This document shows positions 24,601 to 47,563 of a stretch of 64,000 bases of DNA, piece by piece (position 1 is the stretch's first letter; each line of letters starts with the position of its first letter). A program made the translations under genes and the position numbers. The notes under the pieces are model-generated. The model did no database searches. It saw only the letters and a list, made by a program, of their open reading frames with translations, and was not told where the DNA came from. The DNA is from an uncultured Lewinella sp. (lineage in GTDB: Bacteria > Bacteroidota > Bacteroidia > Chitinophagales > Saprospiraceae): NCBI GenBank assembly GCA_913057785.1, contig CAJXPD010000015.1, positions 1 through 64,000 of the forward strand, written 5' to 3'.

Positions 24601-27600
24601 GTTTGAGCCGTTTCTGTTACTTGAGCGTCTCCTGTCACACCCCCAACTTCAAGCGTTGGAGCTGCACAAGCCTCAGCAGTTCCATTGAAGAAGTTCTCAG
24701 AATTCACCTGGCTATTCCCTACCTGCCACAGTTGGCGAGTAGAAGTGGCGCCATTGGAGTAATTTACGGTAACCGTTGCACCGATCAATTCGGCGCCTGC
24801 ATTCCCAGCTGAGTTAAAGCCTTCAATACTACGTGGATCTACATCCACCGCAATATTCACCGTCTCGCCTGGCTCGAACTCTGTGAAGTCTAAGGTCATC
24901 ACATTATAACCACCCGGGCCATTGGGATCAGAGAATGGGGCTACACAATCGGGATCCGTTCCCGTTCCATTATTACCAGGAATGGTCAACCCTACATTCG
25001 AGTTCCCTCCTGTTTGAGCAACAAGCGTCACACACTGTGCCGTAGCGTCACCTGCAGTACCTACAGGGTCAAAGACCATGTTAGGGAAGACTGCTGTGCT
25101 AAGGTCAATAGAGACTGAGGAGATATTGACTGCTCCAATTGAATTGTTAGTGATGAATAAGCCACCACCAAAAGTACTAGAGCCAGCTAATCCACCGCCT
25201 GTTTCAAAAGCAACACGAGAACAAGGATCTACTGAGCAATCCGCGGGAGCTGTTCCCGCATCCTCATTTGCAAATGTACAAGCTAGATCATCAGAGAAGG
25301 TTGCCGTTAGACTAATAGGACCACCATCAGCACTCATTTCTACACCAACAAAAGTATGCGTCGTACCTACTAAAGTAGATACATCCACTGATGCTGTACC
25401 ATCTCCGGTCAGATCTAGGGTACCAGCTGCTGGAGCACTGGCAAAAGTGACCGTCACATCGGCAGTGAAAGTATCATCACCTGCATCGGAGGTCGTCTGA
25501 TCGTTACAAGCAGAAATATTGTTCACCTCGATGGCACTAATGCTACATGGCGCCACAGAACAAGGTTCAGGAGCGTTACCCAAATCATCGTTTGTCACCG
25601 AACATCCAGGAATCCCTATGATGCTGGCAGTATAGGAAATAGGAGCACCATCCGCAGGAACCTCAATGTTAAATTGAATATTGGTCAGCGGGGCACTCAG
25701 AAGGCTTAAATCAAGCGTAAAGGATGCTGAGCCAGTAACCTCTAAAGTTCCAAAGGCAGGCGCATTATTCAAGGTAACGGTAAGCGATTGAAAGAAAGTA
25801 TCATCAGAGGGATCTTCAGGAGTACCTTTATCGTTACACGGACCAGTAGCCAGTACAACAATATCAATTAGTTGGCAGGGCACCACGGAACAAGCTTCCG
25901 GAGCTGTCCCTGCATTGATATTCGTCAATTCACAAGTAGGCTCGTCGGAGAATGCTGCAGATACGATAATAGTTGTACCATCTGCGGTCATCGTTACACC
26001 AGTAAAAGTATAGGAATTCCCTGTAATGTCACCCACTGGAATGCTACCCGTCGCTTCCTCTCCTAATACCAAGTTTCCAGTGGTAGGCGCACTCTCATTG
26101 AACGTCACTGTAATATCTGCAGTAAAGGTATCATCCTCAAGGTTAGCATCAGTTCCATTATCATTACAAGCTGAAATGTTATCGACCTGAATAGCGGTAA
26201 TAGCGCACGGTACTGGGGGTTCAACTACCACCTGAACCGTTTCGGTGGTTTCTATACCACAGGCGTCCGTTACAGAAGCCGTGATGGTATGCGTTCCTTC
26301 AACGGTAAGTATTGGATTAAGCGTAAGGCCGGTACCAAGCTCACCATTATTAGCTGTTTCTAGATCAGAAGACCAAATCACAACCAAACTGTTATCATCC
26401 TCTTCATCATCAGTAGCGGTCGTCGATAAGGATACGCCTCCACCGACCGTGATGACGGTAGGATTGGCTACGATTGGTGAAAGACTTGGCGGTGTGTTCT
26501 CCAGGACATTAACGGTGATGCTTTCCACTGTGGTAGCAGGAGTAGCATCTGTTACTTCTGCGGTGAAGGTCGCTGTTCCGGTAAAGCCGATCAAGTCTAA
26601 AGTTCCTCCGGTCCCCACCTGGGCATTACTTGCATCCTTCCAGACGATCAAAGTGGTGAAGTCCCCTTCTTGTTCTGCATCGGCCGCGCTTGCCGTCAAA
26701 GTGATGTCTTCTCCATCGCCTTCGCAATCAATCACATCCTCTTGCGCAAGAATATCTACAGTTGGAGCGGTGTTGGCCACAAAGTCCGCTGTAGGTGTGA
26801 TACAGAAGCCATTCAACTTACCGTTATCAACGGAAGCATCTATATCGATGTTCAAGATACCATCCGTTACGGTTACATTGAAGGTTTTGGTAGCAGCGAC
26901 TAATGGACCGTATTCAACAAATAGATCAATCCCATTTTCGGTAACTCCCTCGACATCAATATCAAAGAGTCGGTCTCCTGCTCCAAGTCCAGAGCCACCA
27001 CCTGGAGAGCCGATATATAATTCTGTTAGGTAAAGTTCTACCGTAAAATCTCCATTTCCGGTTGGTACAGCATACTGAAGGAGGGTCGCAAACTTTTCTG
27101 ACTGGTATACTTGTTCCTCTCCACTGCCAGGGAAGGTACCTGAAATCGCAGCAGCTAGGTTATTGAAGTTATTTGCTGAACCGACCAAGTACTGCTCAGG
27201 GCTAAAGGTACGCCCGAACGCGGTAATTGGGTTAGGCGCATTGCCACAGTTAACACAAAGTGGTAGATCAGCTGCCACTTCCACCGTCCAACTAAATGCT
27301 TCAGTATTAGATTCTGGTTCATCGTCCGTAGCCGTAATTACAACTGCATAAGGACTACCATTGGAAGCACCTACAGAGATAGTTCCACTGATGACCCCCG
27401 TATTCGGATCAATACTTAATCCAGGAGGTAGTGTACCATTATCGGAGTAGGTAACGGCACCGCCATCTGGATCAAATGCTGCAGCCGTTGGACCCGTTGG
27501 TGAATCTCCTTCCAAACTGAACTGATCTGGGATATTTGATGTAAAAACTGGAGGTAGTGTACTAGTAGTTTGCGTAAACTCAAACTCATTGATATTCATA

Positions 27601-30323
27601 CCTCCACCAAAATCAAATCGCAAGCGTTGTAGGCCAGTACTTGTAAAAATAACAGTGGTGGTATAGTCAGAGAAATTAGTCCATCCGTTATTTTGGATAC
27701 CTAAAGTTCCAATCGATGAAAATCCACCTCCTGATTCCTCTGAAACCGTTAAAGTTGCTGGATTGCCGCCAGCGTTATTACCTTTCGAGGCATTAACTCT
27801 TAGGTCATAGGCACCTGGAGCAGGTACATCAATAAGATATTCCGCAAACTCACCTGAGTCAATCCAACCAATATTACCTGCCGGTTCAATAGCAAATTGC
27901 CCGCCGGGTGGATTACCTCCGTAAAAAGGAGTAACCGGGGTGGAGAAAGTTCTAGCCAAGATTACATCAATAATATCTTGGGCAACGTTAATTTGGAACA
28001 CCTCCTGCGCTACGGGATTAATCCCATCATCAGCCGTTACACGAGCTTCGTAAGACTTACCATCAGTGTTAGCAGTTGGCCAATCCAGAATATAGTTACC
28101 AGAATTAGCAGGGCTCTCTGTAAAGGTATATGCAGAAGCAGGTACGGTGGCTGCTGGAGTAAACGGATTATTCGTTCCTCCAGGGGCACTCTTATCATAA
28201 ATAACGATTCCCACAGTATTGGGAGCATCGCCACCACTTACCGTTATAGGTATATTGAGCGTAGTTCCTTCATCTATCTCTTGATCATCAACGGCGGTAA
28301 TAAGAGGTGCCGTACTAACTGAAAATTCAAAGTAGTCGATATTGAATTGGAAAGCAGTAGCACCTACCCAATCAAAACGTAAAGTCTGAGGACCAGCGGG
28401 CAGCGCGACTGTCACGCTTTGGATCTGATAAGAGCCAAAACCTCCGGTAGAGGTCGGGGTGAATGTAGTCAAGAGATTTCCATTAGAGGAAATTTCCATG
28501 CCTTTGTTCGCTCCACCAGGGACCCCCACAAACAGATCTAATTTGTAGTTCCCGGCCGTTTCAACATCTATTTCATATTCTGCAAAATCACCCGCATTGG
28601 TGAATCCAATATTGGTAAAACCAGCATCGATTTCTACCCCTATACCGTTATTATCACTGGTATTTCCAGGTGAGGTGTTATCTGGGCCTTGCTCATCAAA
28701 AGATTCTGCCTCAATCCTAGTAGTTCCGATCTCAGTTACTACTTGATCCACATCGTTAACAGTTAAGTCTAAGGTTTCGGTGATGGTGTTACCATCTTCG
28801 TCTGATACCTCTACTGTAATTGTATAGACGGCATTCCCATCGCCATTGGATCCACCGTCACCGAAGGTGGGGGTGAAATCTAGGCTTGAGCTATAGGAAC
28901 CGGCAGCCGATGAAATAGAAGACTCAGTTAAAAATCCACCAGCCGTGGTTGGGAATGGATCTACTTGCTTACCACTATTGGCAGATTGTAGATCTTCAGG
29001 TTCATTTGAGATAGAAGTGATGGTAACTGTGAGATTGTCCCCATCAGCATCTGCTACACTAAGTGGTACGCTAACAATTCCACCTTCATTTACACTTGCG
29101 GTGGGGTCAATGGTAATCACTGGTGCCGTATTGCCTTGTGTCACCGTGAAGTTCACAATCGCTTTGGCTCCTACACAAGTAAATTCCGTATGGTTGGCGG
29201 CCGCAGCTACTACTACGATAGTATTAGCACCAAGCTGGATTCCATTGCCGTTCCCATCAAAGGCCAAGCTTCCACTATTCTCATCGAAGGTAAAGCTTGT
29301 TTGAGATCCATTACTGGCCGTAGAGATTCGTTTTGCCTGATCCAGGTTATTCACATCTGGAGGGTTGATGAAGAAGTGCATGTGCTCATTTGGCGCTTGT
29401 TCCGTACCAAATAGAAGATCCGTAACATTGACTTCCACATCGACCGTAGTTCCTTCTATGCTTCCCCCCTCTGTGGGAGCAACAAAGGTGATCGTAGGAC
29501 AGGATACATTAACAGTAATTTCGTCAGTCCCCGGTAAACCTCCAGCATCCGTCACCGAAGCCGTAATCGTCTGAGGGCCTGGCTCTAGCAACTGATCCGC
29601 AATAGAAGTACCTAGTTGACTTCCGGAAAAAGCCACATCACTAGAAGACCAAGCCAGATCATCTCCTAGATTGGGTTCTTGGCCATCTACTACGGTAGCC
29701 GTCAAATTGAAGTTTTGCCCACGGGTAATATCGGCCCCATCGGTAGGCGCCGTAATAGTAACTACCGGTGCCGTATTATCACTGCCTATCGTGACAGACA
29801 GTGGCGTGGTACCCGCCAAGATATTAGGGCCATCTAAGGATACTTTAGAAGGTAAAGTGCCATCAAAATCTACCGTAGTGGTAGTTCCTACCCCAATCAC
29901 CTCAAACTCAATGGTCAAGAAATCAAAGCCAGCAGGTACGTCTGTTGAAAACAAGACTGCTGCATAATCTATTGTACCCAAGGTGTTGTCAAAGGTTGGG
30001 GCCACGATGGGGGTTGGCAAGGACGAACCTGCCGTAAGGCCAGCAGCTTTAACCTGCAACACAGTTGGATCAAAGGTGAGATGAATTTCTGCTGCATCCA
30101 CCAAACCAGTTCCATTTACTTGAACCACGGTCGTAAACTCTGTACTAATAGTCGGGTCTACTGTAACATTTGCGGGATTAAACTCCAGCGTGGGCTGTGC
30201 CCAGGCTGACACCGCAAAAGCGAAAAATAAAGCCAGTACACTTAGGTACCGTTTCAGGTCACCTTCGCTTTGCGGAGGTGCGCCTGGGTGGCTTTTGATT
30301 TTTGATATAAATGCTAAGTGCAT
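18630..30323 (-). CDS. Giant mosaic secreted protein (3897 aa): cohesin/cadherin-like, CBM6/malectin-like, PKD, thrombospondin type-3 repeats, T9SS type A C-terminal sorting domain
   Basis: Signal-like YLSVLALFFAFAVSAWAQ; FTADPLSGTAPLTVSFDAS PKD units; DADEDGIPDADDNC TSP3 units; three WLEAECAxVGxNW carbohydrate-binding-like units; C-terminal LQLFPNPVADQLTVRFSL...GIYLLHL...RKFVVARN T9SS CTD. Confidence 0.9.
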   Translation of the reverse strand: MHLAFISKIKSHPGAPPQSEGDLKRYLSVLALFFAFAVSAWAQPTLEFNPANVTVDPTISTEFTTVVQVNGTGLVDAAEIHLTFDPTVLQVKAAGLTAGSSLPTPIVAPTFDNTLGTIDYAAVLFSTDVPAGFDFLTIEFEVIGVGTTTTVDFDGTLPSKVSLDGPNILAGTTPLSVTIGSDNTAPVVTITAPTDGADITRGQNFNLTATVVDGQEPNLGDDLAWSSSDVAFSGSQLGTSIADQLLEPGPQTITASVTDAGGLPGTDEITVNVSCPTITFVAPTEGGSIEGTTVDVEVNVTDLLFGTEQAPNEHMHFFINPPDVNNLDQAKRISTASNGSQTSFTFDENSGSLAFDGNGNGIQLGANTIVVVAAAANHTEFTCVGAKAIVNFTVTQGNTAPVITIDPTASVNEGGIVSVPLSVADADGDNLTVTITSISNEPEDLQSANSGKQVDPFPTTAGGFLTESSISSAAGSYSSSLDFTPTFGDGGSNGDGNAVYTITVEVSDEDGNTITETLDLTVNDVDQVVTEIGTTRIEAESFDEQGPDNTSPGNTSDNNGIGVEIDAGFTNIGFTNAGDFAEYEIDVETAGNYKLDLFVGVPGGANKGMEISSNGNLLTTFTPTSTGGFGSYQIQSVTVALPAGPQTLRFDWVGATAFQFNIDYFEFSVSTAPLITAVDDQEIDEGTTLNIPITVSGGDAPNTVGIVIYDKSAPGGTNNPFTPAATVPASAYTFTESPANSGNYILDWPTANTDGKSYEARVTADDGINPVAQEVFQINVAQDIIDVILARTFSTPVTPFYGGNPPGGQFAIEPAGNIGWIDSGEFAEYLIDVPAPGAYDLRVNASKGNNAGGNPATLTVSEESGGGFSSIGTLGIQNNGWTNFSDYTTTVIFTSTGLQRLRFDFGGGMNINEFEFTQTTSTLPPVFTSNIPDQFSLEGDSPTGPTAAAFDPDGGAVTYSDNGTLPPGLSIDPNTGVISGTISVGASNGSPYAVVITATDDEPESNTEAFSWTVEVAADLPLCVNCGNAPNPITAFGRTFSPEQYLVGSANNFNNLAAAISGTFPGSGEEQVYQSEKFATLLQYAVPTGNGDFTVELYLTELYIGSPGGGSGLGAGDRLFDIDVEGVTENGIDLFVEYGPLVAATKTFNVTVTDGILNIDIDASVDNGKLNGFCITPTADFVANTAPTVDILAQEDVIDCEGDGEDITLTASAADAEQEGDFTTLIVWKDASNAQVGTGGTLDLIGFTGTATFTAEVTDATPATTVESITVNVLENTPPSLSPIVANPTVITVGGGVSLSTTATDDEEDDNSLVVIWSSDLETANNGELGTGLTLNPILTVEGTHTITASVTDACGIETTETVQVVVEPPVPCAITAIQVDNISACNDNGTDANLEDDTFTADITVTFNESAPTTGNLVLGEEATGSIPVGDITGNSYTFTGVTMTADGTTIIVSAAFSDEPTCELTNINAGTAPEACSVVPCQLIDIVVLATGPCNDKGTPEDPSDDTFFQSLTVTLNNAPAFGTLEVTGSASFTLDLSLLSAPLTNIQFNIEVPADGAPISYTASIIGIPGCSVTNDDLGNAPEPCSVAPCSISAIEVNNISACNDQTTSDAGDDTFTADVTVTFASAPAAGTLDLTGDGTASVDVSTLVGTTHTFVGVEMSADGGPISLTATFSDDLACTFANEDAGTAPADCSVDPCSRVAFETGGGLAGSSTFGGGLFITNNSIGAVNISSVSIDLSTAVFPNMVFDPVGTAGDATAQCVTLVAQTGGNSNVGLTIPGNNGTGTDPDCVAPFSDPNGPGGYNVMTLDFTEFEPGETVNIAVDVDPRSIEGFNSAGNAGAELIGATVTVNYSNGATSTRQLWQVGNSQVNSENFFNGTAEACAAPTLEVGGVTGDAQVTETAQTATITGPANAEVEILVYGTTLEDVAGNAPSDPLEMNKAQSIQSITTTLDVNGTADVNLDLTGTSDQQIYYIVATVLPVADNCGQSACDISNVVRLQIIELVCTVTDISVSNVSLCDDAGSPEFEDDFFTADITVSFENIPTIGTLDLSGDGTGSVDVSELVDQLSYTFEGVVMAADGSAISLTAAFSDDTACIFTNEDAGPAPAGCSVDPCARVAFDTGGGLAGSSTFGGGLFISNNSSGAVNITSVSIDLSTAVFPNMVFDPVGTAGDATAQCVTLVSQTGGNGNVGLTIPGNNGTGTDPDCVDPFSDPNGPGGYNTMTLDFTEFEPGETVNVAVDVDPRSIEGFNSAGNAGAIAGSELIGATVTVTYSNGATATRQLWQVGNSQVNAENFFSPATPTCTAPELSVGGITADGQVTETAQIASISGLDNADVEVLVFGTTIEDVGVNGLPTDPLEMNKAQSIAAFTTSLNGIGTGQIAIDLTGTSDQQIYYIVATIIPEADDCGQGACDVSNIVRLQIVEPVCAISALTVDNISACNDLETPDLTDDIFTADVTVTFENIPATGTLDLSGSATASVDVNDLTGTSYTFVGVQMPADGATISLTATFSEDIACTFANADAGTAPEACSVQPPDVTLWLEAECAEVGENWVTVVDAGASNGEYVTPVPGNNSLPSPPADVPANQVKFSFELGTGEGADYYLFGLVNAPTGDDNSFWVRVNGGSWIQWWQGLDTDGGFEWREVLNSPFSLAEGENTIEFAYREDGTLLDKIYLSAEAGSPTTTGPEGVNCLPNEAPIAAFTADPLSGIVPLSVSLDASASSDADGTIVSYQWVITGPVSASFNEDTPLSSFDFTTPGIYTVSLTVVDNDGAISTNTATATITAENAPDADEDGIPDADDNCPNDANPGQEDLDLDGIGDVCDPDIDGDGTINEEDCAPLDAALAIEQTYYADADEDGFGDPNASQVSCGQLAGYVLDNTDNCPDTANPDQADLDNDGIGDVCDTDADGDGFEAGEDCDDLDAAINPDAIDIPDNSIDENCDGQDATNSGSGTFWLEAECAIVGSNWITITDGDASNGEYVTPASGNNSLPVPPADVPANQVEFVVNLSAGQVGDYHLFARIEAPSNDDNSFWVRVNGGDWIQWWQGLNTFGGFDWREVLNSPFALVAGANTIEFAYREDGTLLDKIYLSGDPEIPTSIGPEGVNCTPNIPPVAAFTADPLSGTAPLTVSFDASTSSDADGTVVTYNWDFGPSTDTDDDPISSFTYTQPGTYVVTLTVVDNDGAASLNTATVTIVVDEVVVPDADEDGIPDADDNCINTPNPDQDDLDNDGIGDVCDDDADGDGFDAGEDCDDFNAAINPDAFDIPDNDIDEDCDGQDATTTEVTIWLEAECAEVGSNWDTTVDPSSGASNDTYVSIQSGFNSLFAPPADNPANIVKFTVDLQQAGDFYIVARIQAPSNSDDSFWVRVNGGGWIQWWQGLFTGNEFDWREVVQSPFSLQAGSNTIEFAYREDGTLLDKIMVSTELQFPDGVGGTAPDCDISTNQPPVASFFATPTSGTAPLTVNFNASASSDPDGTVEIYTWDFGPVGGSDNSPLTQFTFTDPGTYVVTLVVTDNEGATSNTASTVIVVSPAVDDDADDDGVADDVDNCPNTPNPNQADLDNDGIGDVCDDDADGDGFDNTIDCNDFDEDVNNGAIEICDGIDNDCDGFVDEDGVCDGCSQQLIDFNNFDNTWGIWNDGGIDCRRSANDAAFAFGGTGRPVRLRDNTISSVMTTDPLDLTAYTELTVDFTYLTISLDNELEDFWLQVSLDGGASFTTVEEWNLGDEFQNGIRYFDAVTIAGPFTENTLLRFRCDASGNTDRVYIDNVAISGCFDLNGLIAGPERETKTAKKAVSTFGALEVERDQETAPTDLQLFPNPVADQLTVRFSLPELTDVTLVVTDLQGRRIGMERLLNARGTLEQRIAVERYPAGIYLLHLITPEGKRTRKFVVARN

Positions 30324-30376: not shown

Positions 30377-33300
30377 CTACGGCTGTTCTGTCGGTTCTTC
30401 TCCGTTCACATTGAAGTTGCCTCCTGCTACGGAGAAGTCCTCTAATCCCACTTGGCCATCGCCATTGAAATCAGCATAGTTTGGAGCGCCACCGGGATTC
30501 ACGTTTGAAGTGTTGAAGACACCACCAAGGATGGAGAAATCCTCCAGAAGCACTTTATTGTCCCCATCCACATCACCTGCCAGTAGCTCAGCGATCGTCG
30601 CTGAATTAGCTCCTTCTGTCAAGGTGATTACCTGCACGCGCTGCAAGAACCCAGCACGCTTCACTGCCACTTGGTAAGTTCCAGGAGTGATATCAGGAAT
30701 GGTCATGCTACCAGCAGCATCTGCAGTCGGTGTATAGGAAGCCACAGGGGTCTGGGCATCTGTCAAGCTGAACAAATTCACCGTGTAATCTCCACTGTAG
30801 TCTGGATTACCTGTCCCTAGATCTCTACCTTGGTTGGTGACAGTAAGTGTCAAGTCTGCACCTGCGCCTGCACAAGTAGGATCTAACTTCAGGATTAGGA
30901 TATTGGAAGTTTGACTTACTTGTTGATCTACGGCATAAGGGCCATCAGACAATACTGCGACGATGTGGTTCAATCCACCGTTGGTAGTACCTCCAGGTCC
31001 TGGTGTTTCAAGCAGGGTAACTGGAATTTCTACCGTTCCATCATTTCCAATAACAGCGGTATATAAGGTCTTACCACTCATCGCCTCATTAGCATAGAAG
31101 GTCTCATCAGGAACATTGAAAGGTGGGTTGCCGGACTGGATAAACAAGCGAGAATCCATCAACAATAAGGATACATTGGCACCAGCGGGACCGCTAACTT
31201 CGATCGTCTGATTGGCAGACTCAACACAAGTAATATCATCTTGTCCTACCGCCGTAATACTTGGTGTAGCAGGTGCGTTCTCAGCCACAATAGCTTGGCC
31301 ACCACCTAAACTACCGTCTTCATAGATATTAGAAACCAAAGTACTGCCATCGCTAAACGTGATCGTTACTGTAGCACCGATCAACTCATATCCAGAAACG
31401 GATCCAGCCCCACCTGCCCCGGGCACACCTTGAATGCTATTAGGATCGACATCTACTGTGTGGAACAAGGCCTCATTTGGATCAAAATCCGTGAAGCTGA
31501 TACTCATCACATCAAAACCGCCATTGCGCGGGGCACTGAATGGACTCGAACAAGGATCAGCTGGAGCGATCAAGCCAGTGGCCGTGGCACCACTATTCGC
31601 CGTAAAACAACTCGCCGTAGCATCTCCTCCAGCACCGACGGGATCAAATACCATATCTGGCAAGATTCCAGTGCTCAGATCGAGCGTGAAGCTGGTGATT
31701 TGTAGATTGCCCGTAGAAGTGTTCGTCAACTGGATACTGCTTCCACCAAAGGTGCTTGCACCTAGCGCTCCGTCAGGAGTAATCTCAACCAAAGCCGATG
31801 GGCTTCCAGTTGGTGGGGTTTCAGAAACTACCCATGTGAAGTTGGCACTTGCAAAAGCGGGTGGATCACACGCATCTGCAACCGTTACCGTAACATTATA
31901 TGGACTGCCATCCGCAGCACCTGCTGTACCACCAACTGCCTGTTCAGATTCTGGTCCGTTCAAGGTATTGGTAGGAACGCCAGTCGCCACATCATCTATG
32001 TGGATTAGGGCAAAACGATCTACCTTGTGCCCAGCTGAGCGCTCAGACATATTGATCGTGTAATTACCAGCAGTGGGGAAGTATGCATAGATAGGAAAAC
32101 CGTTATTGTCAATTGTTTTAGAATCCCATTTATTTCCATCAGTCCCACTTCTAAATACTTTGAAATAACCTTTATTGCCAGGATTCTCATTTCCATGGTC
32201 AGGACGGTTTTCCGCATTTCCTGCTGGATAATAGTAGGTTTGACTAGTGCTATTAGGATCCGCGATTTCATTGAGAAAAGCCTGAGTACTACTCACTGTA
32301 CCACCTTGTGAACAGAAGAAATGTACGTCCGTGGTGTTATCAATCTTGAACCAACTGTCATTCTCTTCTGAACCAACGGTACCTGTGATATCACTCTTCA
32401 TGTGGAAGCGATAAACTCCTGGAGTATTGATCTCAATATCGTAGGTTAGTACCTCACCACCGGTGGCATTACCAAAATTATTACCGGTAGCTAGCAAGAA
32501 ATCCACACCTGAATCTGCGAAAGGTTCCCAACCACCTGAAGTATTCACAAAGTCCGTTTCTGCCTCAATAATTAGTACTCCTCCATCTTCAATAAAGGCT
32601 CCTGCCACACCAGATCCAGATCCTGCATCTAAAGTTCCGGTAATCAGTCCGGTATTTTCATCAATACTTAAACTAGGCGGAAGGCCTGTAGCCGAATAGG
32701 TCAAGCCATCGCAAGGATCCGTGTCTGTAGCAGCAATCTGTAAGGAAACAGCACTTCCTTCTACGCCAGATTGCGTTCCTGGATTAATGACCACCGGAGG
32801 ATCGTTATCAGAAGCGGCAACAGTAGAGACCTGAATCCCCTTAATCGCTGGATTTTCTACGCCGTGAATCAGCTCTATATCAATCGTACCATCTGAAGTA
32901 GTGGTAAAGGTTCGAACGAAGGCTCCTTTTGGTCCAGCTACCGCATATGGATCTATATCATCAAATACAGGAGGTATAACCCCGTCAATAGAAATATCAA
33001 AAACGCGTTGTCCAGCTCCCGTGATGTCTTGAAATAGTTCAGCGAACAAAATCGCAATTTCTACTTCTGTACCTTGTGGAACCGGGAATTGCCACAACAT
33101 CTCTGGGGCGCCAGGACCATCCCAACGTTCCGTATTGAATACTTCCGTAGGAATCTCTGGAAAGGCAGCTAAGGATGGATCGGTCGTGATGATCGGTCCT
33201 GGATGAGCGCTGGCACTATTTCCACTGAAGGTACCGCCCGTAGCTGTTGCTGCAATGAGATAAGGCGAATTTCCTGCAGCTCCGAAAGCTCCAGTATCCG

Positions 33301-36300
33301 CACTCCAAACCGGAGAAGATGCATCCGCTGCAGAAAGTTGCGCACCACCTGCATTAACGCGGAATAACGCCTGGGTTTGAGAAGGCGCAAGCACGGTCCA
33401 AGTAAAGCTTGTGCTGACTAAATCATTCGTTTCACCATCACTATCATCCACCGATACAGTGACATTGTATATACCGTCATTATTAGGACCTCCTGCGGAT
33501 GCTCCAACATCTATAGTACCAATGATGTCTCCGTTGGTTGGTTCTACACTTAAGCCTGTAGGTAAGCCACTTGCGGAATAAAGTAAATTGCCATCTCCAC
33601 CAGTCGCCACAATATCAAATGGAGACGGTACCCCCTCCACACTGATTTGATCACTAATCTGACTAAGGTTGATCGGAATATCTCCGGTTGACCCAAAGCC
33701 TAGTACTTCGATAGCTGAGATCTTACCATTGTTCGCGGATGCAGGGAATGAGATACTCAAGGAACCATCACTTACGGTGATATTACCAAACGTCTTGATC
33801 GTTGCAGCTGCGGCTCCGACCTCAGCAAAAATGTCAAAGTTCAAGAGCTTATTTTCGCCTTCAATCACGATATCAAAGACTCGGGAACCCACTCCGCCAC
33901 CACCTGACAAGCCGAAGAACAACTCTGCAAAGTGTAGATTCACTTGGTACGGGCCAGTTCCGGCTACCGGGATTTCGTATTGCAGATTCGCATTGTATCG
34001 CTCCGTTTGGTACAGATCGTCGTCATCCGTATTAGCTATCGCTGCTGTAGATGAAAAGGTCTGACCATTAACAAAGAAATTATCAGCAGCCCATTCTTTA
34101 CCGGCTCCGTCCGTGTAGGCTGGACCACCGGCGTTAACCCGAATTTCTTCAGCGGGTGCTGCGTCAGGGTCGTATTCTACAATGATAATATTTGATAAGT
34201 CACTGGTAGCTCCATCATCATCGACTATTACTGCGGCAAAAATGTTGTAACCCGCTTCATCATCTGAATCTGTTAAGGTCACATTGAAATCCGCGGTGAA
34301 AGAATTACTGATGGTACTAGTTAGCTTAGTGACACCAATCACGCTATTCACTTCCCAGGGATCAATATCATATCCATCTGGGGCATTCGGGCCATTTAAT
34401 CCATCAAGGAATAAGCCCGCCTCCAGTTGTAGTAGGAGTACCTCTCCACTTACGGGACCAGTAACCGTCACCGTATGGTTTGGTGTCACCACCACGGACT
34501 GGCTAGTCACATTATCAATAGAAATAGTAGGTGCATCTGGGAGTGCATTTCGTGCCACGTTCTTGGAATCTCCCTCGCTATCATTTTCGCCACTCATCAA
34601 TTCCACTTCCCATTCTTCACCGGTGTCAAAAGTAACAATGACTTTAGCACCACTAATTTCCAAACCGGACACACTACCGGATTCATTTGGTCCTGGAGAA
34701 CTACCACCTTTTATACTGACCGGATCAATATCCAATCCGAATTCGATGGTCTCTCCACTGGCAAAGTCATTGAAATTTACCTCTAAGGAGTAAAACCCTC
34801 CTTCGTAGGACTTGCCAAAATTGTGGCTTGTATAGCCAGTACCACCATCTGAACCACCATTAAGCGTTAGGTCCTTGGAGGTTGCATCTCCCGCCGTTCC
34901 ATTGGGATCAAAGACAACCTCTGGGATAATCGCAGTAGACAGGTCAATGATAACCTTTGTTATCTGCGAGCCCGTGGATAGGTTTTCTATGAAAAAAGAT
35001 GAATTGCCAAATGTACTTCCATTGATCCCACCGGTATTAACCTCGATCTTCGCTTGTGCATCCGATGGATTCTGGGTCACTTCGAAGTAATCCCAGCTAG
35101 CGGAGAATTCCGGAGCTGGCCCAGTAGAAGTAGCAATCGGGCCAGCAGCTAGTGCCGAGGCTTGCCCATTAATGGTATAAGTACCTTGGATGGCATCCAA
35201 TAAATCTCCGGTAACAGTTACTGGGGTTCCGATATCCGTTCGGGTACCTCCATCAGCAGCATAACTTGCCTGCACTTCACCAGTGGTGGGGTCTACGCTG
35301 ATATAAATAATGATCGTAGAGGCATTTAATATACCAGCCACGTTAACCAACTGTGAGGTGGTAGAGCCGTTATTCTCTAATAATACCTGAAAGGCGGAAG
35401 ATCCACCGTTATTTCTAACGGTCACCTTCAAATAATTCTGCTGATCCCCAGTACCGATAAAGATTCCGTGGGAGGCAAAATTTTGTGGTGATTGATTATC
35501 GAAGAAAGGGCCATTGATTTGCCCTAGCACGGTGAAGGGGCCAGTGCTTGTGCTCACATTTACCGGAAACTGAAAGGCATTCTTTTGGGAGTTTCCTCCT
35601 TCGAAAGCATCACCAGCAGCCACCGATGGATCGGTATATATACCCGCTGTTCCCCCGAATACCAATTCATCTCCACTATCATCGATCAGGCCGAAGTAAT
35701 CTTGAGAACCATTGGTCATGATGCCCGTGAAACCGAGGCTACCAAAGCCATATCCGGTGGAGTTGAAGAGGTCTAAGCGTACTGGAAGATCTCCTAGACC
35801 GCCTTTACCATTAGTTGCGTCAAAACAGAAGGCATCATCCACATCTGGGATACCGTCTTGATCGTCATCCGCATCATTTAAATCTGATCGCTTGAAACCG
35901 TTAAATTCAACTACATCGTCAAAGTCAGCGGGCTTACTCGCCCCTGAGCAAGGATTGGTTCCGTTATCGATTTCATCCGCATTGGTATATCCATCATTGT
36001 CCTCATCTATCGTATCGTCGTCATTGCCTAAGCACTGACCAGGATCATTACCGTCGTAATCAGAAGGTTCAAAAATGGTAATGTTATCTGCCCCGTAGGT
36101 TACTGCCCATACGGTACCTCCGAATGCATCATCATCTCCCTGAGCAATCACATCAAGCGGATTACTTCCAAAACCAGATGCGAAAGAATCACTACAGTTA
36201 TTGGCCGGATTGGAAGGACAATTCGTTGCTACCGTTCCATCCGCATTCAAAAATACCTGATAGATGTTTCCGTTGAAGGCTGCCAATAGAAGCGTCCCCT

Positions 36301-37723
36301 TTAAGGCGTTATTAAAGTTACTAGCCGTGTATTCTGCGATACCGTTGGTGGAAGGGCCGTAATTAGCCATGGCATTGTCATCCACACCGGATTGCTGAAA
36401 ATCACATTCTATAGGATTAGCTGCCGTTACGGGTGGCCAACTTGCTGGCAGATTGTTATTCCCAGGAGCATAAAATGTACCATTGTAATACAAACCAGCG
36501 CCGTCCGGATTACCTCGGATTGGCGTTGGGTGCCCGGCATAATAATCCTTGAAAAACAGGTGCAGGCCGTTTTTATTGTTGACCTGTGGATCCGGGTTTC
36601 CATTACTTGCCACGGTCCCGTTCTGTCCGTCCAATAAGGTAATATTGTTCGGGTAAGTGGAGGGGTCTGGCCCTTGGCCTGTGGAACCCGGTTCACCATT
36701 TATGTAGTTGTTAGTGGCATCATATGATTCTTCATATTCCGGGAAACCTCCCCAGCCTCCATTGGCACCATTATCCACACCGTACATTCTGCCAGATTCT
36801 GTAAGTACGAGGTCATATAGGTTTCGCCAACCGGGTGAAAAGATTTGCACGGGGCCATTCGGATCCAGCATGGCTTGGTTTAAACCATCATCTCCCCCCC
36901 AAGGATCCGGGTGATCATTACCATTGGCCAATAGATCAGCTTTACTCACATTCTGGAGCGTAGGCAAATTGTACTTAAAAGCTGCTCCATCTCCATCGGT
37001 TTGGGTCGGTAAGGCCTCAATCACATCCAAATCTGCCTCTAGTACCGCCGCAGATAAGGCGTATTCTGTTGTAAAAGCAAAGTTGTTGGAAGGTGCACCA
37101 GCATTAGTATGTCCACCTTGGGCAATGTAAAGGATGTTGTTTTGCTCATCCAACTGCATTCCGTTAGTGGCGTGGTTCTCTTCCGACCTTGGTAAACCTC
37201 TAATTAGGTCAACTTTGGTCCAGCCGGTGCATTGGCCAGAGCCATCAATACCACCAGTACAGGTAAGCTTAGAAACGACACCGGAATTGGTATCCAAACC
37301 TGTGTCATTTCCTCCTCCACCGGCTCCAATCCGAGGATCACTAGAACTTACGTAGAGGATCGGATTGGCACCCGTGCCAGTTATTAATATCCCAGTAACC
37401 TGCCGGTTACTATTTCCAGAATTCGATCCATCATCATTGTGATTTTGGATGTTCTTCACCAGGTTGATTGTTTCTGTACTGGTGACTTCATAATCATTCG
37501 GGCCATTTCTTTGGATCGTGTAAGCGTATATGGTTCCATTCTGTTGGGAAACATATAAACGACCGTCAGGCCCGAACTGTAGAGAGGTCGGGTTGTTTGA
37601 GGACTCCCCTACCAATCCACTCGATGTAAAGTTCACTTGTCCAATCACTGACAAGGAACTCAACAGCCACGCTATAAGCAGTATGGCTTTTTGAGGTTGA
37701 AAGTTTTGTAGGAAATAGGTCAT
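30377..37723 (-). CDS. Giant secreted protein (2448 aa): sGDH/sorbosone dehydrogenase-like propeller, malectin-like domains, shared repeat modules, C-terminal dockerin-like EF-hand pair
   Basis: N-terminal FGPDGRLYVSQQNGTIYAY propeller motifs; malectin-like RVNAGGxxYTD...FAELF; C-terminal DVDGDNKVLLEDFSILGG...DFNGDGQVGLEDFSVAGG. Confidence 0.85.
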   Translation of the reverse strand: MTYFLQNFQPQKAILLIAWLLSSLSVIGQVNFTSSGLVGESSNNPTSLQFGPDGRLYVSQQNGTIYAYTIQRNGPNDYEVTSTETINLVKNIQNHNDDGSNSGNSNRQVTGILITGTGANPILYVSSSDPRIGAGGGGNDTGLDTNSGVVSKLTCTGGIDGSGQCTGWTKVDLIRGLPRSEENHATNGMQLDEQNNILYIAQGGHTNAGAPSNNFAFTTEYALSAAVLEADLDVIEALPTQTDGDGAAFKYNLPTLQNVSKADLLANGNDHPDPWGGDDGLNQAMLDPNGPVQIFSPGWRNLYDLVLTESGRMYGVDNGANGGWGGFPEYEESYDATNNYINGEPGSTGQGPDPSTYPNNITLLDGQNGTVASNGNPDPQVNNKNGLHLFFKDYYAGHPTPIRGNPDGAGLYYNGTFYAPGNNNLPASWPPVTAANPIECDFQQSGVDDNAMANYGPSTNGIAEYTASNFNNALKGTLLLAAFNGNIYQVFLNADGTVATNCPSNPANNCSDSFASGFGSNPLDVIAQGDDDAFGGTVWAVTYGADNITIFEPSDYDGNDPGQCLGNDDDTIDEDNDGYTNADEIDNGTNPCSGASKPADFDDVVEFNGFKRSDLNDADDDQDGIPDVDDAFCFDATNGKGGLGDLPVRLDLFNSTGYGFGSLGFTGIMTNGSQDYFGLIDDSGDELVFGGTAGIYTDPSVAAGDAFEGGNSQKNAFQFPVNVSTSTGPFTVLGQINGPFFDNQSPQNFASHGIFIGTGDQQNYLKVTVRNNGGSSAFQVLLENNGSTTSQLVNVAGILNASTIIIYISVDPTTGEVQASYAADGGTRTDIGTPVTVTGDLLDAIQGTYTINGQASALAAGPIATSTGPAPEFSASWDYFEVTQNPSDAQAKIEVNTGGINGSTFGNSSFFIENLSTGSQITKVIIDLSTAIIPEVVFDPNGTAGDATSKDLTLNGGSDGGTGYTSHNFGKSYEGGFYSLEVNFNDFASGETIEFGLDIDPVSIKGGSSPGPNESGSVSGLEISGAKVIVTFDTGEEWEVELMSGENDSEGDSKNVARNALPDAPTISIDNVTSQSVVVTPNHTVTVTGPVSGEVLLLQLEAGLFLDGLNGPNAPDGYDIDPWEVNSVIGVTKLTSTISNSFTADFNVTLTDSDDEAGYNIFAAVIVDDDGATSDLSNIIIVEYDPDAAPAEEIRVNAGGPAYTDGAGKEWAADNFFVNGQTFSSTAAIANTDDDDLYQTERYNANLQYEIPVAGTGPYQVNLHFAELFFGLSGGGGVGSRVFDIVIEGENKLLNFDIFAEVGAAAATIKTFGNITVSDGSLSISFPASANNGKISAIEVLGFGSTGDIPINLSQISDQISVEGVPSPFDIVATGGDGNLLYSASGLPTGLSVEPTNGDIIGTIDVGASAGGPNNDGIYNVTVSVDDSDGETNDLVSTSFTWTVLAPSQTQALFRVNAGGAQLSAADASSPVWSADTGAFGAAGNSPYLIAATATGGTFSGNSASAHPGPIITTDPSLAAFPEIPTEVFNTERWDGPGAPEMLWQFPVPQGTEVEIAILFAELFQDITGAGQRVFDISIDGVIPPVFDDIDPYAVAGPKGAFVRTFTTTSDGTIDIELIHGVENPAIKGIQVSTVAASDNDPPVVINPGTQSGVEGSAVSLQIAATDTDPCDGLTYSATGLPPSLSIDENTGLITGTLDAGSGSGVAGAFIEDGGVLIIEAETDFVNTSGGWEPFADSGVDFLLATGNNFGNATGGEVLTYDIEINTPGVYRFHMKSDITGTVGSEENDSWFKIDNTTDVHFFCSQGGTVSSTQAFLNEIADPNSTSQTYYYPAGNAENRPDHGNENPGNKGYFKVFRSGTDGNKWDSKTIDNNGFPIYAYFPTAGNYTINMSERSAGHKVDRFALIHIDDVATGVPTNTLNGPESEQAVGGTAGAADGSPYNVTVTVADACDPPAFASANFTWVVSETPPTGSPSALVEITPDGALGASTFGGSSIQLTNTSTGNLQITSFTLDLSTGILPDMVFDPVGAGGDATASCFTANSGATATGLIAPADPCSSPFSAPRNGGFDVMSISFTDFDPNEALFHTVDVDPNSIQGVPGAGGAGSVSGYELIGATVTITFSDGSTLVSNIYEDGSLGGGQAIVAENAPATPSITAVGQDDITCVESANQTIEVSGPAGANVSLLLMDSRLFIQSGNPPFNVPDETFYANEAMSGKTLYTAVIGNDGTVEIPVTLLETPGPGGTTNGGLNHIVAVLSDGPYAVDQQVSQTSNILILKLDPTCAGAGADLTLTVTNQGRDLGTGNPDYSGDYTVNLFSLTDAQTPVASYTPTADAAGSMTIPDITPGTYQVAVKRAGFLQRVQVITLTEGANSATIAELLAGDVDGDNKVLLEDFSILGGVFNTSNVNPGGAPNYADFNGDGQVGLEDFSVAGGNFNVNGEEPTEQP

Positions 37724-38990: not shown

Positions 38991-39869
38991 TTATTTTCTA
39001 AAAGGTGCGGGATGCAGTTTACTTGGTTTAAGTGGAGCTGGCATCCATTCCCCATCAGAAAGTACTGAGATCTGCTCATAACCTGATTCTAATAGTAAGG
39101 AAGTCCCGAACTCAAAGCCTTTGGTGATATTTTCGGGATGATGAGCGTCAGAAGCTAGATGAACTGGAATCCCCATCTGCTTAGATTGGATCAGTATCCG
39201 CCGTCCAGGATAAGGTTCCGCCGTTTCGTTTTTGTAGTAACCTTTTGTATTTACCTCCATAATGGAACCGACTTCCGCAATGGAAACTAGCGTTTTATCT
39301 ATCGCTTCTAGATACCATGGAGATGATTCCGAGAAGAATCGCTCCCCTCTATTCCATTTCTTGATACGATCCAGATGTGCCACAATGGTAGGTCGAAAGT
39401 CTTCGACCATCTCCCTAATCAAAGCATAATATCGCTCCACTGCAGCCTGGATACTACCATTAAAGATTTCAGTCACTCCTCGTTCAAAACACTCTACTGA
39501 CTCCTCAAACCCCCAGGGAGTCCCATCTGCAAATGCATCGACGAAGTGCACCGCTCCGATCACATAATCTAGCTCTGATTCTAGGATATGTGGACTATCC
39601 ATTGCAATTACTCCTGGGATATAGTCTACCTCCAGACTTTTGTAGACTTGAATATCCTCTTCATACATCTGCTTCAGGGTATCTATTTCGGCCAAATATC
39701 GTTCGAGCTCCTCCAAGCTCATCAGCCCCACAGCGGATCCAGGGACTGGAGCATGATCAGAAAAACCATAGGTCTTTAATCCTTGGGCTATGGCCTCTTG
39801 TAAATATTCTCTAGGACTTAGTCTTCCATCGCTGAAGTGCGAGTGGGCATGGTGATTAGCTAATTGCAT
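38991..39869 (-). CDS. PHP-domain histidinol-phosphatase-like protein
   Basis: NHHAHSHFSDGRLSPREYLQEAIAQGLKTYGFSDHAP; GAVHF; AHLDRIKKW; SDAHHPENI: PHP/HisK-type metal-site motifs. Confidence 0.85.
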   Translation of the reverse strand: MQLANHHAHSHFSDGRLSPREYLQEAIAQGLKTYGFSDHAPVPGSAVGLMSLEELERYLAEIDTLKQMYEEDIQVYKSLEVDYIPGVIAMDSPHILESELDYVIGAVHFVDAFADGTPWGFEESVECFERGVTEIFNGSIQAAVERYYALIREMVEDFRPTIVAHLDRIKKWNRGERFFSESSPWYLEAIDKTLVSIAEVGSIMEVNTKGYYKNETAEPYPGRRILIQSKQMGIPVHLASDAHHPENITKGFEFGTSLLLESGYEQISVLSDGEWMPAPLKPSKLHPAPFRK

Positions 39870-40013
39870 GACACAATATAAGCCTACGATGTAAATTCTA
39901 GATTAATCCGAGGTTGTCCCAAAATAAAATTTCAGGGAGATTGCTGATCGTGAAAAGGTATAGTCGCAAACTTCCTGACGGGCACGATAAACTAAGTGCA
40001 ATCTTAATTCAAG

Positions 40014-41144
40014 CTATGGAGCAGTTCTCCACAAGCGAGAGTATAGCTCAGGGGAAGCGTGTATGTATCGCGGATCGGATACTTTACTTTTCCATTTGGC
40101 GCTGATCATTTCGCTCGTCTGTAGTCGAGCATCGACATTTTGGAAGGTGGGATTATCAAACCACATTCGATTGGCCTTCCAGTGACAATTAATATAACTA
40201 ACAGCCTTTACGACATCTTCATTTTCTTCAATCGTCTGGAAGAAGGGTTCAAACCACTGATCCCATGCTTCCGTGGCCTGGTTTGAATTGGAGAGAATCG
40301 TTTCCTTCGTCTTACCATTTGTCTTGACCGTCTCTGTCGATATGGTGGCGGTGGCTTCGGCAATAAATACGGGTTTTCCTCTCTTACGAGCAAACTCAAT
40401 CATTTCTACTTCATCAAAACGGGAAAAGAAGGAATAACCACACCAGTCCACATACTCATCCCCCGGATACCAGCTCTCTAAAACGTTTTGATCCATTCCC
40501 CACCCATGCGACTGCCACACATAGGCCACATTTTCAACTTCCAGGCTATCATACAGATGATGGATTCGTTTAAAGGCGTCTACATACTGTTTACGGTCAT
40601 AGTGATTCCAGGCCCCTCCAAATTCATAGCCAATTCGCAAAAAGACAGGTCTTTGCCCCAAACTCTTGATCCACTCCCCAAGTGCTATGACTAAACTATC
40701 ATGGGTTCCATCGGCAACTTTGGCTTCATGATTGACAAGCTCCAAGCCAATGGCTAAGGCCATATGTTCAAAATCTGGATCAGCGATCTGTCTAGACATA
40801 TTACTAGGCCCATCACCCCAGTCATCCGTTGTGAAGACTCCAGCTAGGCCATCATAGGTAAAGCCAAACTCCTCATCCCCAGGTCGGATCTTTGTATACA
40901 TAGTAAATCCACCCGGACGTTCAAAATGATCCAAGTATCCATCGTTAAATTCCTCCAAACCACCGATAGCTGCTAATTCTTGACCTACAAAAAGGATGCA
41001 TTTGCCATCTTCAGGTTCGAATTTGGCAAGTGTTGAAGTGGGTTCTTGTGCGTTAGCATCGTTTGGTGGGTTAGCTTCGTCAGAAGCATTAGGCGCACAG
41101 GCCTGGAGGGCAATAAGCCCTAAGCCATACAAAAGCGTTCTCAT
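40014..41144 (-). CDS. GH26-like glycoside hydrolase lipoprotein (paralog A)
   Basis: Start at internal Met (MRTLLYGLGLIALQAC lipobox). RPVFLRIGYEFGGAWNHYD acid/base region; WYPGDEYVDWCGYSFF; GKPVFIAEA nucleophile region. Confidence 0.7.
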   Translation of the reverse strand: MRTLLYGLGLIALQACAPNASDEANPPNDANAQEPTSTLAKFEPEDGKCILFVGQELAAIGGLEEFNDGYLDHFERPGGFTMYTKIRPGDEEFGFTYDGLAGVFTTDDWGDGPSNMSRQIADPDFEHMALAIGLELVNHEAKVADGTHDSLVIALGEWIKSLGQRPVFLRIGYEFGGAWNHYDRKQYVDAFKRIHHLYDSLEVENVAYVWQSHGWGMDQNVLESWYPGDEYVDWCGYSFFSRFDEVEMIEFARKRGKPVFIAEATATISTETVKTNGKTKETILSNSNQATEAWDQWFEPFFQTIEENEDVVKAVSYINCHWKANRMWFDNPTFQNVDARLQTSEMISAKWKSKVSDPRYIHASPELYSRLWRTAP

Positions 41145-41255
41145 GTTTTTCTTATTTGGTTCTCCGATGCTTCTGGGCACTGCGCTCACCATTACCATTG
41201 ATATAGCACAGCTCGGACAAGCTGTCCTAGCCACAAAGTCTATCTGAGAGGTATT

Positions 41256-42851
41256 TTATTTTTCTACGTATTCGTACCATTTAAAATCAGCAGCTTTCCG
41301 GTGTCCACTCAAATCCTGACAGCACATCCCGACAAATGTTCCTGTAAAGGCAGGTCGATAACGATCTGTACCTCTGACATAGTCATCTGCTAGGATGGTA
41401 CCATCCAAGACAGGACCAACCGGCATCCATTGATTCTCCTCCAAGGCATAAGAGGCTTCTAGGGCTCCATAATCAAAGGTGAAACGTAGATACACTTCTC
41501 CAGACTTGGGAATCAGTACGGGTTCTGCCAATTTTTCCTGCATATCAAAATTATCACAGTAAATCAGCTGTAGATACCGGTGATTCGCATCCTCTCCTCC
41601 AGATAGATGAAGGTAGACCCAATGCGAGGTATTGTAATAGGCTACCAATCCAGCCATCTCCTGAAAATGAGTAGGTTGAAAATCTAGACAAGCTGAGACT
41701 TCTGCTTGAAAATGTTGAACTCTTCTAGCTACCAAGCTTTGTCGATGAAAGGAGCTTAATGATTCTCGACCGTAGAGACGCAAGTAACCGGGCCGATCCG
41801 TTAATGAAAGCCAACTACCCTCTACAGGAACGCGTAGGCTCTGGAAATGTCGATCTAAGCTTGAATCATTAAAGGTAGTCCGGGCTGGGAACGCAGCAGC
41901 AGGCTGCAGTTCTACTCCTGCTGGAGCGGGAACCTCCAGGCGTGGCACGGCTACACCTTGTTTCAGGTACAGCCAGTTATCTTCTCTCCACTCTACTTGT
42001 TCAATGGCGGTCTCCCGCCCTAAAACACATCTCCCACGCTGGGTAAGTGGTCGACCGACCAGAAAGACCGCATACCATTCCCCATTTGGGGTCTCCACCA
42101 AGTCAGCATGCCCACACTTCTGTAGCGGGGCACTTGGATCTTCACGAACACTAATCACAGGATTGCTCGGATGCAGCTCATAAGGGCCTTCAATTTTTTT
42201 GGAACGAGCCAAACTGACGGCATGACCATACTCTGTACCTCCTTCTGCCGTAATCAGATAATAATATCCATTCCGTTTATATATATGCGGTGCCTCCGTA
42301 ATGCCTAATTCCGAACCGGGAAAAATTTGCACCGCCTTGCCCACGACCTTTTGTTGCACTGGGTCGTACTCTTGCAATAAGGTTCCCCCAAAGAACTTGC
42401 CTTTGCGATGATCACACCACATACTAGTGAACCATTTCCGGCCATCGTCATCATGAAATAGAGAGCCATCAAATCCACTGGAACTCAAAAAGATTGGATC
42501 TGACCAATCTCCCAAAATATCTTGAGTCGTCACCAGAAAGTTGGGTGTATCCTTCCAGATACCATCAAAGGAACGGACATTAGAATACACCAAGTAGAAG
42601 GTACCCTCATAATAGGATAAACAAGGTGCCCAAACGCCACAGGAATCAGGGTTGCCTAGCATGTCCAGCTGTGTGGTCCGGCGTAAAGGATGGGCCACCA
42701 ACTCCCAGTTGACAAGGTCTCTGGAGTGATGGATTTGCACCCCGGGAAACCATTCAAATGTTGAGGTAGCTATATAGTAATCCTCCCCCACCCTAATGAT
42801 AGATGGGTCCGGATTAAAGCCCCTTAGGATGGGGTTTTTAATCAAATTCAT
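41256..42851 (-). CDS. GH43 beta-xylosidase-like enzyme
   Basis: NPILRGFNPDPSIIRVGEDYYIATSTFEWFPGVQIHHSRDLVNW signature; GVWAPCLSYYEG; SGFDGSLFHDDDGRKWF; ITEAPHIYKRNGYYYL; C-terminal concanavalin-like domain. Confidence 0.93.
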   Translation of the reverse strand: MNLIKNPILRGFNPDPSIIRVGEDYYIATSTFEWFPGVQIHHSRDLVNWELVAHPLRRTTQLDMLGNPDSCGVWAPCLSYYEGTFYLVYSNVRSFDGIWKDTPNFLVTTQDILGDWSDPIFLSSSGFDGSLFHDDDGRKWFTSMWCDHRKGKFFGGTLLQEYDPVQQKVVGKAVQIFPGSELGITEAPHIYKRNGYYYLITAEGGTEYGHAVSLARSKKIEGPYELHPSNPVISVREDPSAPLQKCGHADLVETPNGEWYAVFLVGRPLTQRGRCVLGRETAIEQVEWREDNWLYLKQGVAVPRLEVPAPAGVELQPAAAFPARTTFNDSSLDRHFQSLRVPVEGSWLSLTDRPGYLRLYGRESLSSFHRQSLVARRVQHFQAEVSACLDFQPTHFQEMAGLVAYYNTSHWVYLHLSGGEDANHRYLQLIYCDNFDMQEKLAEPVLIPKSGEVYLRFTFDYGALEASYALEENQWMPVGPVLDGTILADDYVRGTDRYRPAFTGTFVGMCCQDLSGHRKAADFKWYEYVEK

Positions 42852-44386: not shown

Positions 44387-44475
44387 CTTGTGTTTACTGT
44401 TTCATACATATTATTGAAAAACTCCCCTACTCCTCTCGGCAGGGAATCTCTCAAATATAGGTAATCTAGAGCGCT

Positions 44476-45177
44476 CTACCGTTCTTCGATCACCTCCTTC
44501 GTGGAAAACTTGTATCGCATATTACGGTAGACCGCTATATCGGTAATATCCTCAGGTGTATCTTTTGGTATGGCCCTGGAGTTCGCAGAGATTCGGTATT
44601 CTCCTTGAACAGGCAAAACACGGTGCCAAAGATGACCATGTAAGATGATCAAATCCCCCCGCTTAGGGCTTAGCACAACCTGCCCTTCTAGATCCTCATG
44701 TGGGTGTCCACTTGGTATCGCTCCACCTCGGTGCGTAGCTGGAAATACGATAGTCTGTCCCCCTGTTTCCTCCGTGATATCATGGGTATAAAACAGTCGA
44801 TTTAGGTTAAACTGCTGTTGATCCTCAGGAGGGCAATCCTGGTGCCAAGCCTGTCCTCTGGTACCTTTCTTCGAAAACATCGCCATAAAATAGAGTTTCT
44901 CCCATCCGTCTCCGAGTATGGCTTTTGTTAGATTCAATAAACGCCGATCCTGTTCGATGACCTCAAAGACATTGTTGCCTTCTCTAAAAGGAAACCACGG
45001 CACAACTTCAGTCGCAGATTTGGCAATAAACTCATTGGTATGTTCCCAAGCAGGTTTCATACCATAATGTTTCAATATGAGGGTATTGAGGGTATCCATC
45101 ATATTGGCATCAAAAAAACCAGGCAAATGAAGGAAGCCTTTTTCCCAGAACTCCTCCGCGTATTTCTTTACATCCAT
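44476..45177 (-). CDS. Phytanoyl-CoA dioxygenase (PhyH)-family Fe(II)/2-oxoglutarate oxygenase
   Basis: AWHQDCPP (HxD) and HGHLWHRVLPVQGEYRISANSR (distal His and Arg). Confidence 0.9.
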   Translation of the reverse strand: MDVKKYAEEFWEKGFLHLPGFFDANMMDTLNTLILKHYGMKPAWEHTNEFIAKSATEVVPWFPFREGNNVFEVIEQDRRLLNLTKAILGDGWEKLYFMAMFSKKGTRGQAWHQDCPPEDQQQFNLNRLFYTHDITEETGGQTIVFPATHRGGAIPSGHPHEDLEGQVVLSPKRGDLIILHGHLWHRVLPVQGEYRISANSRAIPKDTPEDITDIAVYRNMRYKFSTKEVIEER

Positions 45178-45187
45178 GGTAGTAAAA

Positions 45188-46348: not shown

Positions 46349-46571
46349 GTTGTTATACAATTGGTAGCCAGAGTGGCCAACCCCGGATCTTCCAGGGCGA
46401 CCGTTTAGGCATGTTACTCTGTAAAAAAAATTGGGTGAATGGGACCTTAGTCCTTCTTCAACTTTTGGGGAGTACCTTCGAGCGAAAGCCGCCCCTTCTA
46501 TGCTAATACCTACCCCACTTCAGGCAGGAAATGAGATTTTCATCGGCTACATGCAATCACCAATTGCACAT

Positions 46572-47555: not shown

Positions 47556-47563
47556 GTGCTTGT

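Follow-up and report, generated by a model that had tools for sequence, protein, structure and literature searches.

The window analysed here is a stretch of 64,000 nucleotides from an uncultured Lewinella sp. (contig CAJXPD010000015.1 of assembly GCA_913057785.1, positions 1 to 64,000). Two adjoining giant open reading frames (ORFs) in this window, P0001 and P0002, carry four copies of a protein module that belongs to no described family. The module consists of two domains, hereafter D1 and D2, and is linked, in this window and in many other genomes, to a GSDH-type beta-propeller. There is a dockerin at the C-terminus of P0001 and a cohesin at the N-terminus of P0002. We consider the chances about even that the module serves GSDH-type extracellular protein complexes as an accessory part that binds glycan or matrix in a Ca2+-dependent way.

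Both ORFs are on the minus strand. P0001 (30377..37723) encodes 2448 residues, and P0002 (18630..30323; 3897 residues) lies downstream of it across a gap of 53 bp. The copies, likewise on the minus strand, were located in P0001 at 34160..35065 (A1, aa 887-1188; D1 34532-35065, D2 34160-34531) and 30872..31798 (A2, aa 1976-2284; D1 31265-31798, D2 30872-31264), and in P0002 at 24294..25223 (B1, aa 1701-2010; D1 24660-25223, D2 24294-24659) and 23022..23972 (B2, aa 2118-2434; D1 23397-23972, D2 23022-23396). The module is about 305 residues long. Copies of different types are 32-38% identical over about 310 residues (BLASTP E 6e-31 to 9e-42), and B1 and B2 are 79-80% identical. A profile built from the four copies matched exactly these four places in the 11.36-Mb genome, and no fifth copy was found there. 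The BLASTP E-values and this whole-genome specificity exclude chance or low-complexity similarity among the copies. B1 and B2 are the result of a recent duplication, while A1, A2 and the B type are old paralogues.

A preliminary description of this DNA had placed four copies at these positions, and their ends agree with its figures within a few bases. The motif line that it gave (STFG, DLST, VFDP.G..GDAT, DxDP.SI.G, E(L/I).GA) is present in all four copies, and the Ig-like unit that it saw after the first part is real, being kept together with that part in nearly all relatives. The span of 30878-35070 that it assigned to the module holds the two copies of P0001, but only those two, together with much unrelated sequence between them.

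The preliminary description had also put the module forward as a candidate undescribed one, not recognised as PKD, malectin, CBM6 or cadherin, and proposed that a profile of the four copies be searched against known families. This claim was borne out. In scans of both giants, the four copies and 46 diverse members, no family of Pfam-A or NCBIfam covered the module; among the 46 members, no family matched more than four, with a best E of 0.01. Profile searches of PDB sequences with the module gave best E-values of 0.12 and 0.26. The known domains considered as candidates (PKD, malectin, CBM6, cadherin and choice-of-anchor) were rejected, since none matched over its curated cut-off. Proteins bearing the module are currently annotated as 'hypothetical' or only as 'malectin domain-containing'. 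The family has a clear signature, a confidently predicted structure and about 50 diverse members, and is ready to be named.

The AlphaFold2 model of A1, calculated with 46 aligned members, showed two all-beta domains in tandem (predicted local distance difference test score, pLDDT, 93.7; predicted template modelling score, pTM, 0.91). D1 modelled alone gave a pLDDT of 89.5. The module is thus predicted to be two tandem Ig-like beta-sandwiches, D1 of about 175 residues and D2 of about 125. The Foldseek neighbours were Ig/FnIII-like, with RbmA the best for the whole module and 3esm the best for D1, none of them exceeding a template modelling (TM) score of 0.5 on the query. The D1 model matched the Ig-like 3esm with E 2e-3 and TM-scores of 0.39/0.47, and CBM3b with E 0.1. 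A jelly-roll fold, which had been suggested for the module, was rejected because the predicted models and their Foldseek neighbours are Ig/FnIII-like beta-sandwiches instead. A Foldseek search against viral structures gave no fold match, and a viral origin of the module was set aside.

Conservation is concentrated in D1. Thirteen of the 14 invariant columns are found there (in the numbering of A1, N28, F52, D53, P54, G59, D60, G90, F101, D112, D114, P115, E136 and G139), and the signatures FDP..GD, DxDP and E..G are conserved, whereas D2 is weakly conserved. The many conserved acids in the D1 loops suggest a site for Ca2+ and a ligand. Judging from these sequence patterns, the invariant acidic loop residues of D1 (FDP..GD, DxDP, E..G) probably form such a site.

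The propeller of P0001 occupies 36014..37639 on the minus strand (aa 29-570). In a scan of GTDB species genomes, 38 module loci were found, and in 33 of them a GSDH-type propeller is present in the same protein or in a nearby gene. A propeller of the P0001 family lies in the same ORF as the module in 23 of the 38, usually followed by a LamG-like region and malectins. In L021, L023, L024, L033 and L035 the propeller gene adjoins the module gene or lies within about 4.5 kb. In all five Chloroflexota loci the module makes up a secreted protein by itself, about 360-390 residues long, and the next gene on the same strand encodes a GSDH. The loci outside the 33 are L041, L058, L025, L027 and L050; L050 is a fragment, and L025 and L027 were counted without neighbour genes. 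The preliminary description had mentioned neither this linkage nor the dockerin and cohesin ends of the giants.

The assignment of the propeller family to GSDH was settled by Pfam and PDB comparisons of single members. Pfam GSDH, the cut-off of which is 25 bits, was matched in 11 of 19 family members, for example L045 (54.7 bits, residues 9-371, the whole length), L048 (40.2 bits) and L049 (29.6 bits); the Chloroflexota GSDH scored 109 bits, and its nearest PDB relatives are HHIP and sGDH. The P0001 propeller is 43-69% identical to family members that pass the cut-off. A phmmer search of the P0001 propeller against the PDB gave nothing useful, and a comparison between the profiles of the fused propeller and of the Chloroflexota GSDH gave a weak result (34%). 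The propeller and sGDH align with each other at their H..(S/N)G and G.RNP motifs, and the invariants of the family include the N-H..NG and R-N motifs. The corresponding His and Arg, H156 and R272, are invariant in the propeller family; we take their positions to be those of the catalytic His and the active-site Arg of sGDH. A conserved catalytic His has also been discussed for the fungal CcSDH (PMC4133262).

The C-terminal dockerin of P0001 is of type I (30434..30580, minus strand; Pfam PF00404, 27.4 and 24.9 bits, cut-off 22.9), and the N-terminal cohesin of P0002 lies at 29856..30131 on the same strand (Pfam PF00963, 26.3 and 25.8 bits, cut-off 24.1). Both pass their cut-offs as segments; in scans of the whole giants the dockerin scored 21.7 bits and the cohesin was unmatched. 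A phmmer search of the cohesin region against the PDB gave nothing useful. Dockerins also end the module proteins of Maribacter stanieri, Robiginitalea, Lewinella, Tropicimonas, Halobellus and Halomicroarcula, and cohesins lie inside module ORFs of Lewinella, Neolewinella persica and M. stanieri. In Tropicimonas (L121) the gene directly downstream starts with a cohesin, the same arrangement as in the window. On a Halobellus plasmid (L106, 2683-15804), the gene pair has a haloarchaeal equivalent, made up of two neighbouring module genes and a third gene with a dockerin. In two sister genomes 20 and 18 cohesin matches were counted, and a sister metagenome-assembled genome (MAG) has been reported with cohesin genes (PMC8547425). 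In the genome of the window, cohesin or dockerin matches lie on contigs such as C219, C121 and C55, and one ORF of 1893 residues with five cohesins is scaffoldin-like. A literature search found nothing on malectin together with cohesin or dockerin.

The 38 loci represent at least eight phyla, the taxa being Bacteroidota (Saprospiria, Flavobacteriia), Alphaproteobacteria, Chloroflexota, Planctomycetota, Acidobacteriota, Fibrobacterota, Verrucomicrobiota and haloarchaea, and the D1-D2 unit was found whole in nearly all of them. Isolate genomes back its presence in Bacteroidota, Alphaproteobacteria (Tropicimonas, Roseivivax) and haloarchaea (Halobellus, Halomicroarcula); the other phyla are known from MAG titles, for which misbinned contigs are possible. 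Prevalence is low among sampled genomes, at 4 of 149 near relatives, 6 of 396 Bacteroidota, 3 of 247 in the phylum of Halobellus, 2 of 301 Chloroflexota and 3 of 289 Alphaproteobacteria (one of the three a distant D1-only relative); these counts include the centre genomes. The preliminary description had suggested a surface or adhesion domain, perhaps a jelly-roll, typical of this lineage. A surface-protein domain is plausible, but the predicted models do not bear out the fold, as described above, and the spread over many bacterial phyla and haloarchaea rules out a lineage-specific domain, as does the small share of Bacteroidota that carry it.

The module was found on five plasmid records, among them those of Halobellus, Haloarcula and Parasedimentitalea. 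In the tree, A1 groups with copies from Maribacter stanieri, an Anaerolineaceae MAG and Tropicimonas (support 100/99), and A2 falls among other Bacteroidota copies, within a set in which Alphaproteobacteria are also represented. Old paralogues together with horizontal spread would fit these patterns best; the tree alone is no proof of transfer. The orthologue of P0001 in a sister genome (L021, 2044-9416, the same as L173) is split into frames 2044-2583, 2523-4085 and 4089-9416, which is either an assembly error or a pseudogene. A prokaryotic STING-domain protein of defence type (L114, 4291-5397) lies about 7 kb upstream of a module gene on a 30-kb Roseivivax contig.

D1 has relatives outside the module family. 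A secreted alphaproteobacterial protein of 181 residues matches D1, and its family occurs in 22 of 150 sampled genomes of the taxonomic family of its host. On a Rhodobacteraceae plasmid this family is annotated as 'aggregation factor core' (e.g. QIE43108.1), a name that refers to the sponge aggregation factor. The hhalign comparison of D1 with it gave 96.9% and E 1.8e-10, as a single comparison, over 116 columns. In reciprocal hidden Markov model searches each finds the other, and the listed matches are module-bearing ORFs, one of which, L005, is a fragment of P0001. The FD, DxD and E..G positions are conserved in both families. On these profile comparisons, D1 is distantly homologous to the 'aggregation factor core' proteins, of which it is an extended version. 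A literature search found no paper on a 'Wreath domain'.

A polysaccharide utilisation locus lies upstream of P0001 on the minus strand (38991..55094). It comprises SusC, SusD, GH16, two GH26-like genes, GH43, a sugar transporter, PhyH and PHP. Synteny with two sister species is seen over the portion closest to P0001, and the substrate of the locus may be mannan or xylan. The gene in the SusE/F position (48614-50068) has no Pfam match. Other module genes are found in clusters with glycosyltransferases, sugar epimerases, sulfotransferases and polysaccharide export genes, of the type that makes sulfated exopolysaccharide. Extracellular polysaccharide is common to both settings, but it is broken down in the one and synthesised in the other.

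Within P0001 the propeller is followed by a LamG/GH43_C2-like region (35066..35803, aa 641-886; a weak match, which stands after the propeller in most relatives), A1, malectin and He_PIG domains, a region resembling a carbohydrate-binding module (CBM), A2 and the dockerin. The malectin domain directly after A1 (33722..34144, aa 1194-1334) was matched with an E of 2e-42 for the whole protein. P0002 contains, after its cohesin, CBM6 and malectin domains, B1 and B2, PKD, TSP3 and a C-terminal type A sorting domain of the type IX secretion system (T9SS; 18642..18872, TIGR04183, E 3e-12). These features, too, are all on the minus strand. Pfam and NCBIfam scans found no T9SS tail on P0001. A second undescribed repeat of about 100 residues alternates with B1 and B2 (P0002 aa ~1381-1700, 2017-2117 and 2439-2538; ~22.7-26.2 kb of the window); its pattern is '...C.I..I.V.NIS.CND...DD.FTADVTVTF...' and it has no Pfam match. 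A third giant ORF (1139-8518, 2459 residues), unrelated to the module, has at least seven similar repeats of about 130 residues ('..DLD(I/M)F(L/V)(Y/F)..') and Ig-like parts.

The near-constant company of the GSDH-type domain makes a role on extracellular polysaccharide likely. We also counted in favour of a glycan- or matrix-binding accessory module the carbohydrate context, namely the malectin, CBM6 and LamG-like neighbours, the polysaccharide utilisation locus and the clusters of sulfated-exopolysaccharide type. In such a complex D1 would be the working part, with the Ca2+ and ligand site, and D2 would support it. The module would hold the propeller, together with its malectin and CBM neighbours, on the polysaccharide, where the propeller may oxidise sugars. 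The predicted partner of the P0001 dockerin is a cohesin, for instance the one on P0002, a protein that the T9SS would anchor at the surface beside the utilisation locus. Several facts weigh against this reading. The propeller of P0001 itself falls under the Pfam GSDH cut-off (15.9 against 25 bits). The module protein of L058 has no propeller, although a second module gene in that genome begins with one, and L041 has a propeller that is Kelch-like by eye. The Rhodobacteraceae relatives of D1 are single-domain proteins, and some contexts concern polysaccharide synthesis and not breakdown. The 38 loci are not independent, several being from close Flavobacteriaceae and Lewinella. Since the genome of the window has 29 cohesin matches (E up to 1; 18 over the cut-off) and 15 dockerin matches, obtained with differing E-value limits, P0001 may dock elsewhere.

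It is worth considering three other interpretations. The module could be a passive stalk unit, without a ligand of its own, that keeps the propeller and malectin domains at a given distance from the cell. Such a spacer would suit giants that are full of Ig-like spacers (He_PIG, PKD), the weak conservation of D2 and the origin of B1 and B2 by local duplication. The 13 invariant D1 residues, however, are retained across phyla and exceed what a spacer needs, stand-alone single-module proteins occur beside a GSDH gene, and the module is found in one to three copies per protein, never in long arrays. We regard a mere spacer as unlikely. Somewhat less doubtful, yet still improbable in our judgement, is that D1 acts in matrix or cell-cell adhesion, as an adhesive domain resembling the aggregation factor core, cross-linking the sulfated exopolysaccharide of its own cell or neighbouring cells, the propeller being a binding platform and not an enzyme. 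The homology of D1 to proteins annotated as 'aggregation factor core' and the position of several loci in glycosyltransferase, sulfotransferase and polysaccharide-export clusters would agree with this, as would the biofilm scaffold RbmA as the top whole-module Foldseek match, though at a low TM-score. On the other hand, 'aggregation factor core' is a name inherited through annotation, the neighbours in the window form a polysaccharide utilisation locus, and the propeller family retains the GSDH His and Arg motifs.

The D1-D2 unit might also recognise a partner, the GSDH propeller, instead of a glycan, and act as its subunit or chaperone. Separate adjacent genes in Chloroflexota and fused ones elsewhere are a classical sign of physical interaction. 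A2, however, lies about 1400 residues from the propeller of P0001, modules are also present on the partner gene, and up to three copies per protein are unlike a one-to-one subunit contact. Recognition of the propeller seems to us distinctly unlikely.

Returning to the glycan- or matrix-binding accessory module, its recurring fusion or adjacency with GSDH-type propellers and the repeated dockerin-cohesin pairing between neighbouring giants suggest that bacteria and archaea share an extracellular assembly that oxidises or binds sugars. In Chloroflexota the system is reduced to a single module protein and a single GSDH, two small proteins with which the function can be tested. A far broader proposal, which we regard as unlikely, is that the D1 superfamily would reach beyond the many bacterial phyla and the haloarchaea and take in the core of the sponge aggregation factor. 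The two giants would then be a single example of a surface complex, distinct from the cellulosome and widely exchanged, that cohesin and dockerin assemble and that binds polysaccharide and oxidises sugar.

Comparison with known systems shows partial likenesses. RbmA, a Vibrio biofilm scaffold, and 3esm, of Ig-like fold, were the top Foldseek neighbours, the former for the whole module and the latter for D1, but with TM-scores of 0.21-0.47 and no sequence similarity they are not evidence of membership. The Rhodobacteraceae 'aggregation factor core' proteins share homology and the FD, DxD and E..G positions with D1; they differ in being a single short secreted domain without D2, a propeller in the same protein or the STFG/DP/GD motifs. 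The propeller fused or adjacent to the module belongs to the same superfamily as GSDH and the soluble pyrroloquinoline quinone (PQQ) sugar dehydrogenases (sGDH, Asd, HHIP), but the module is not part of any known GSDH protein, and the P0001 propeller is divergent, with a putative use of PQQ. The fungal CcSDH, which bears a CBM, offers a precedent for a GSDH-type propeller with an accessory carbohydrate-binding module (PMC4133262). The cohesin on one giant and the dockerin on its neighbour recall the scaffoldin-dockerin systems of the cellulosome. In contrast to the cellulosome, P0001 has no recognised glycoside hydrolase, P0002 has a T9SS anchor, and the same parts occur in haloarchaea and Alphaproteobacteria.

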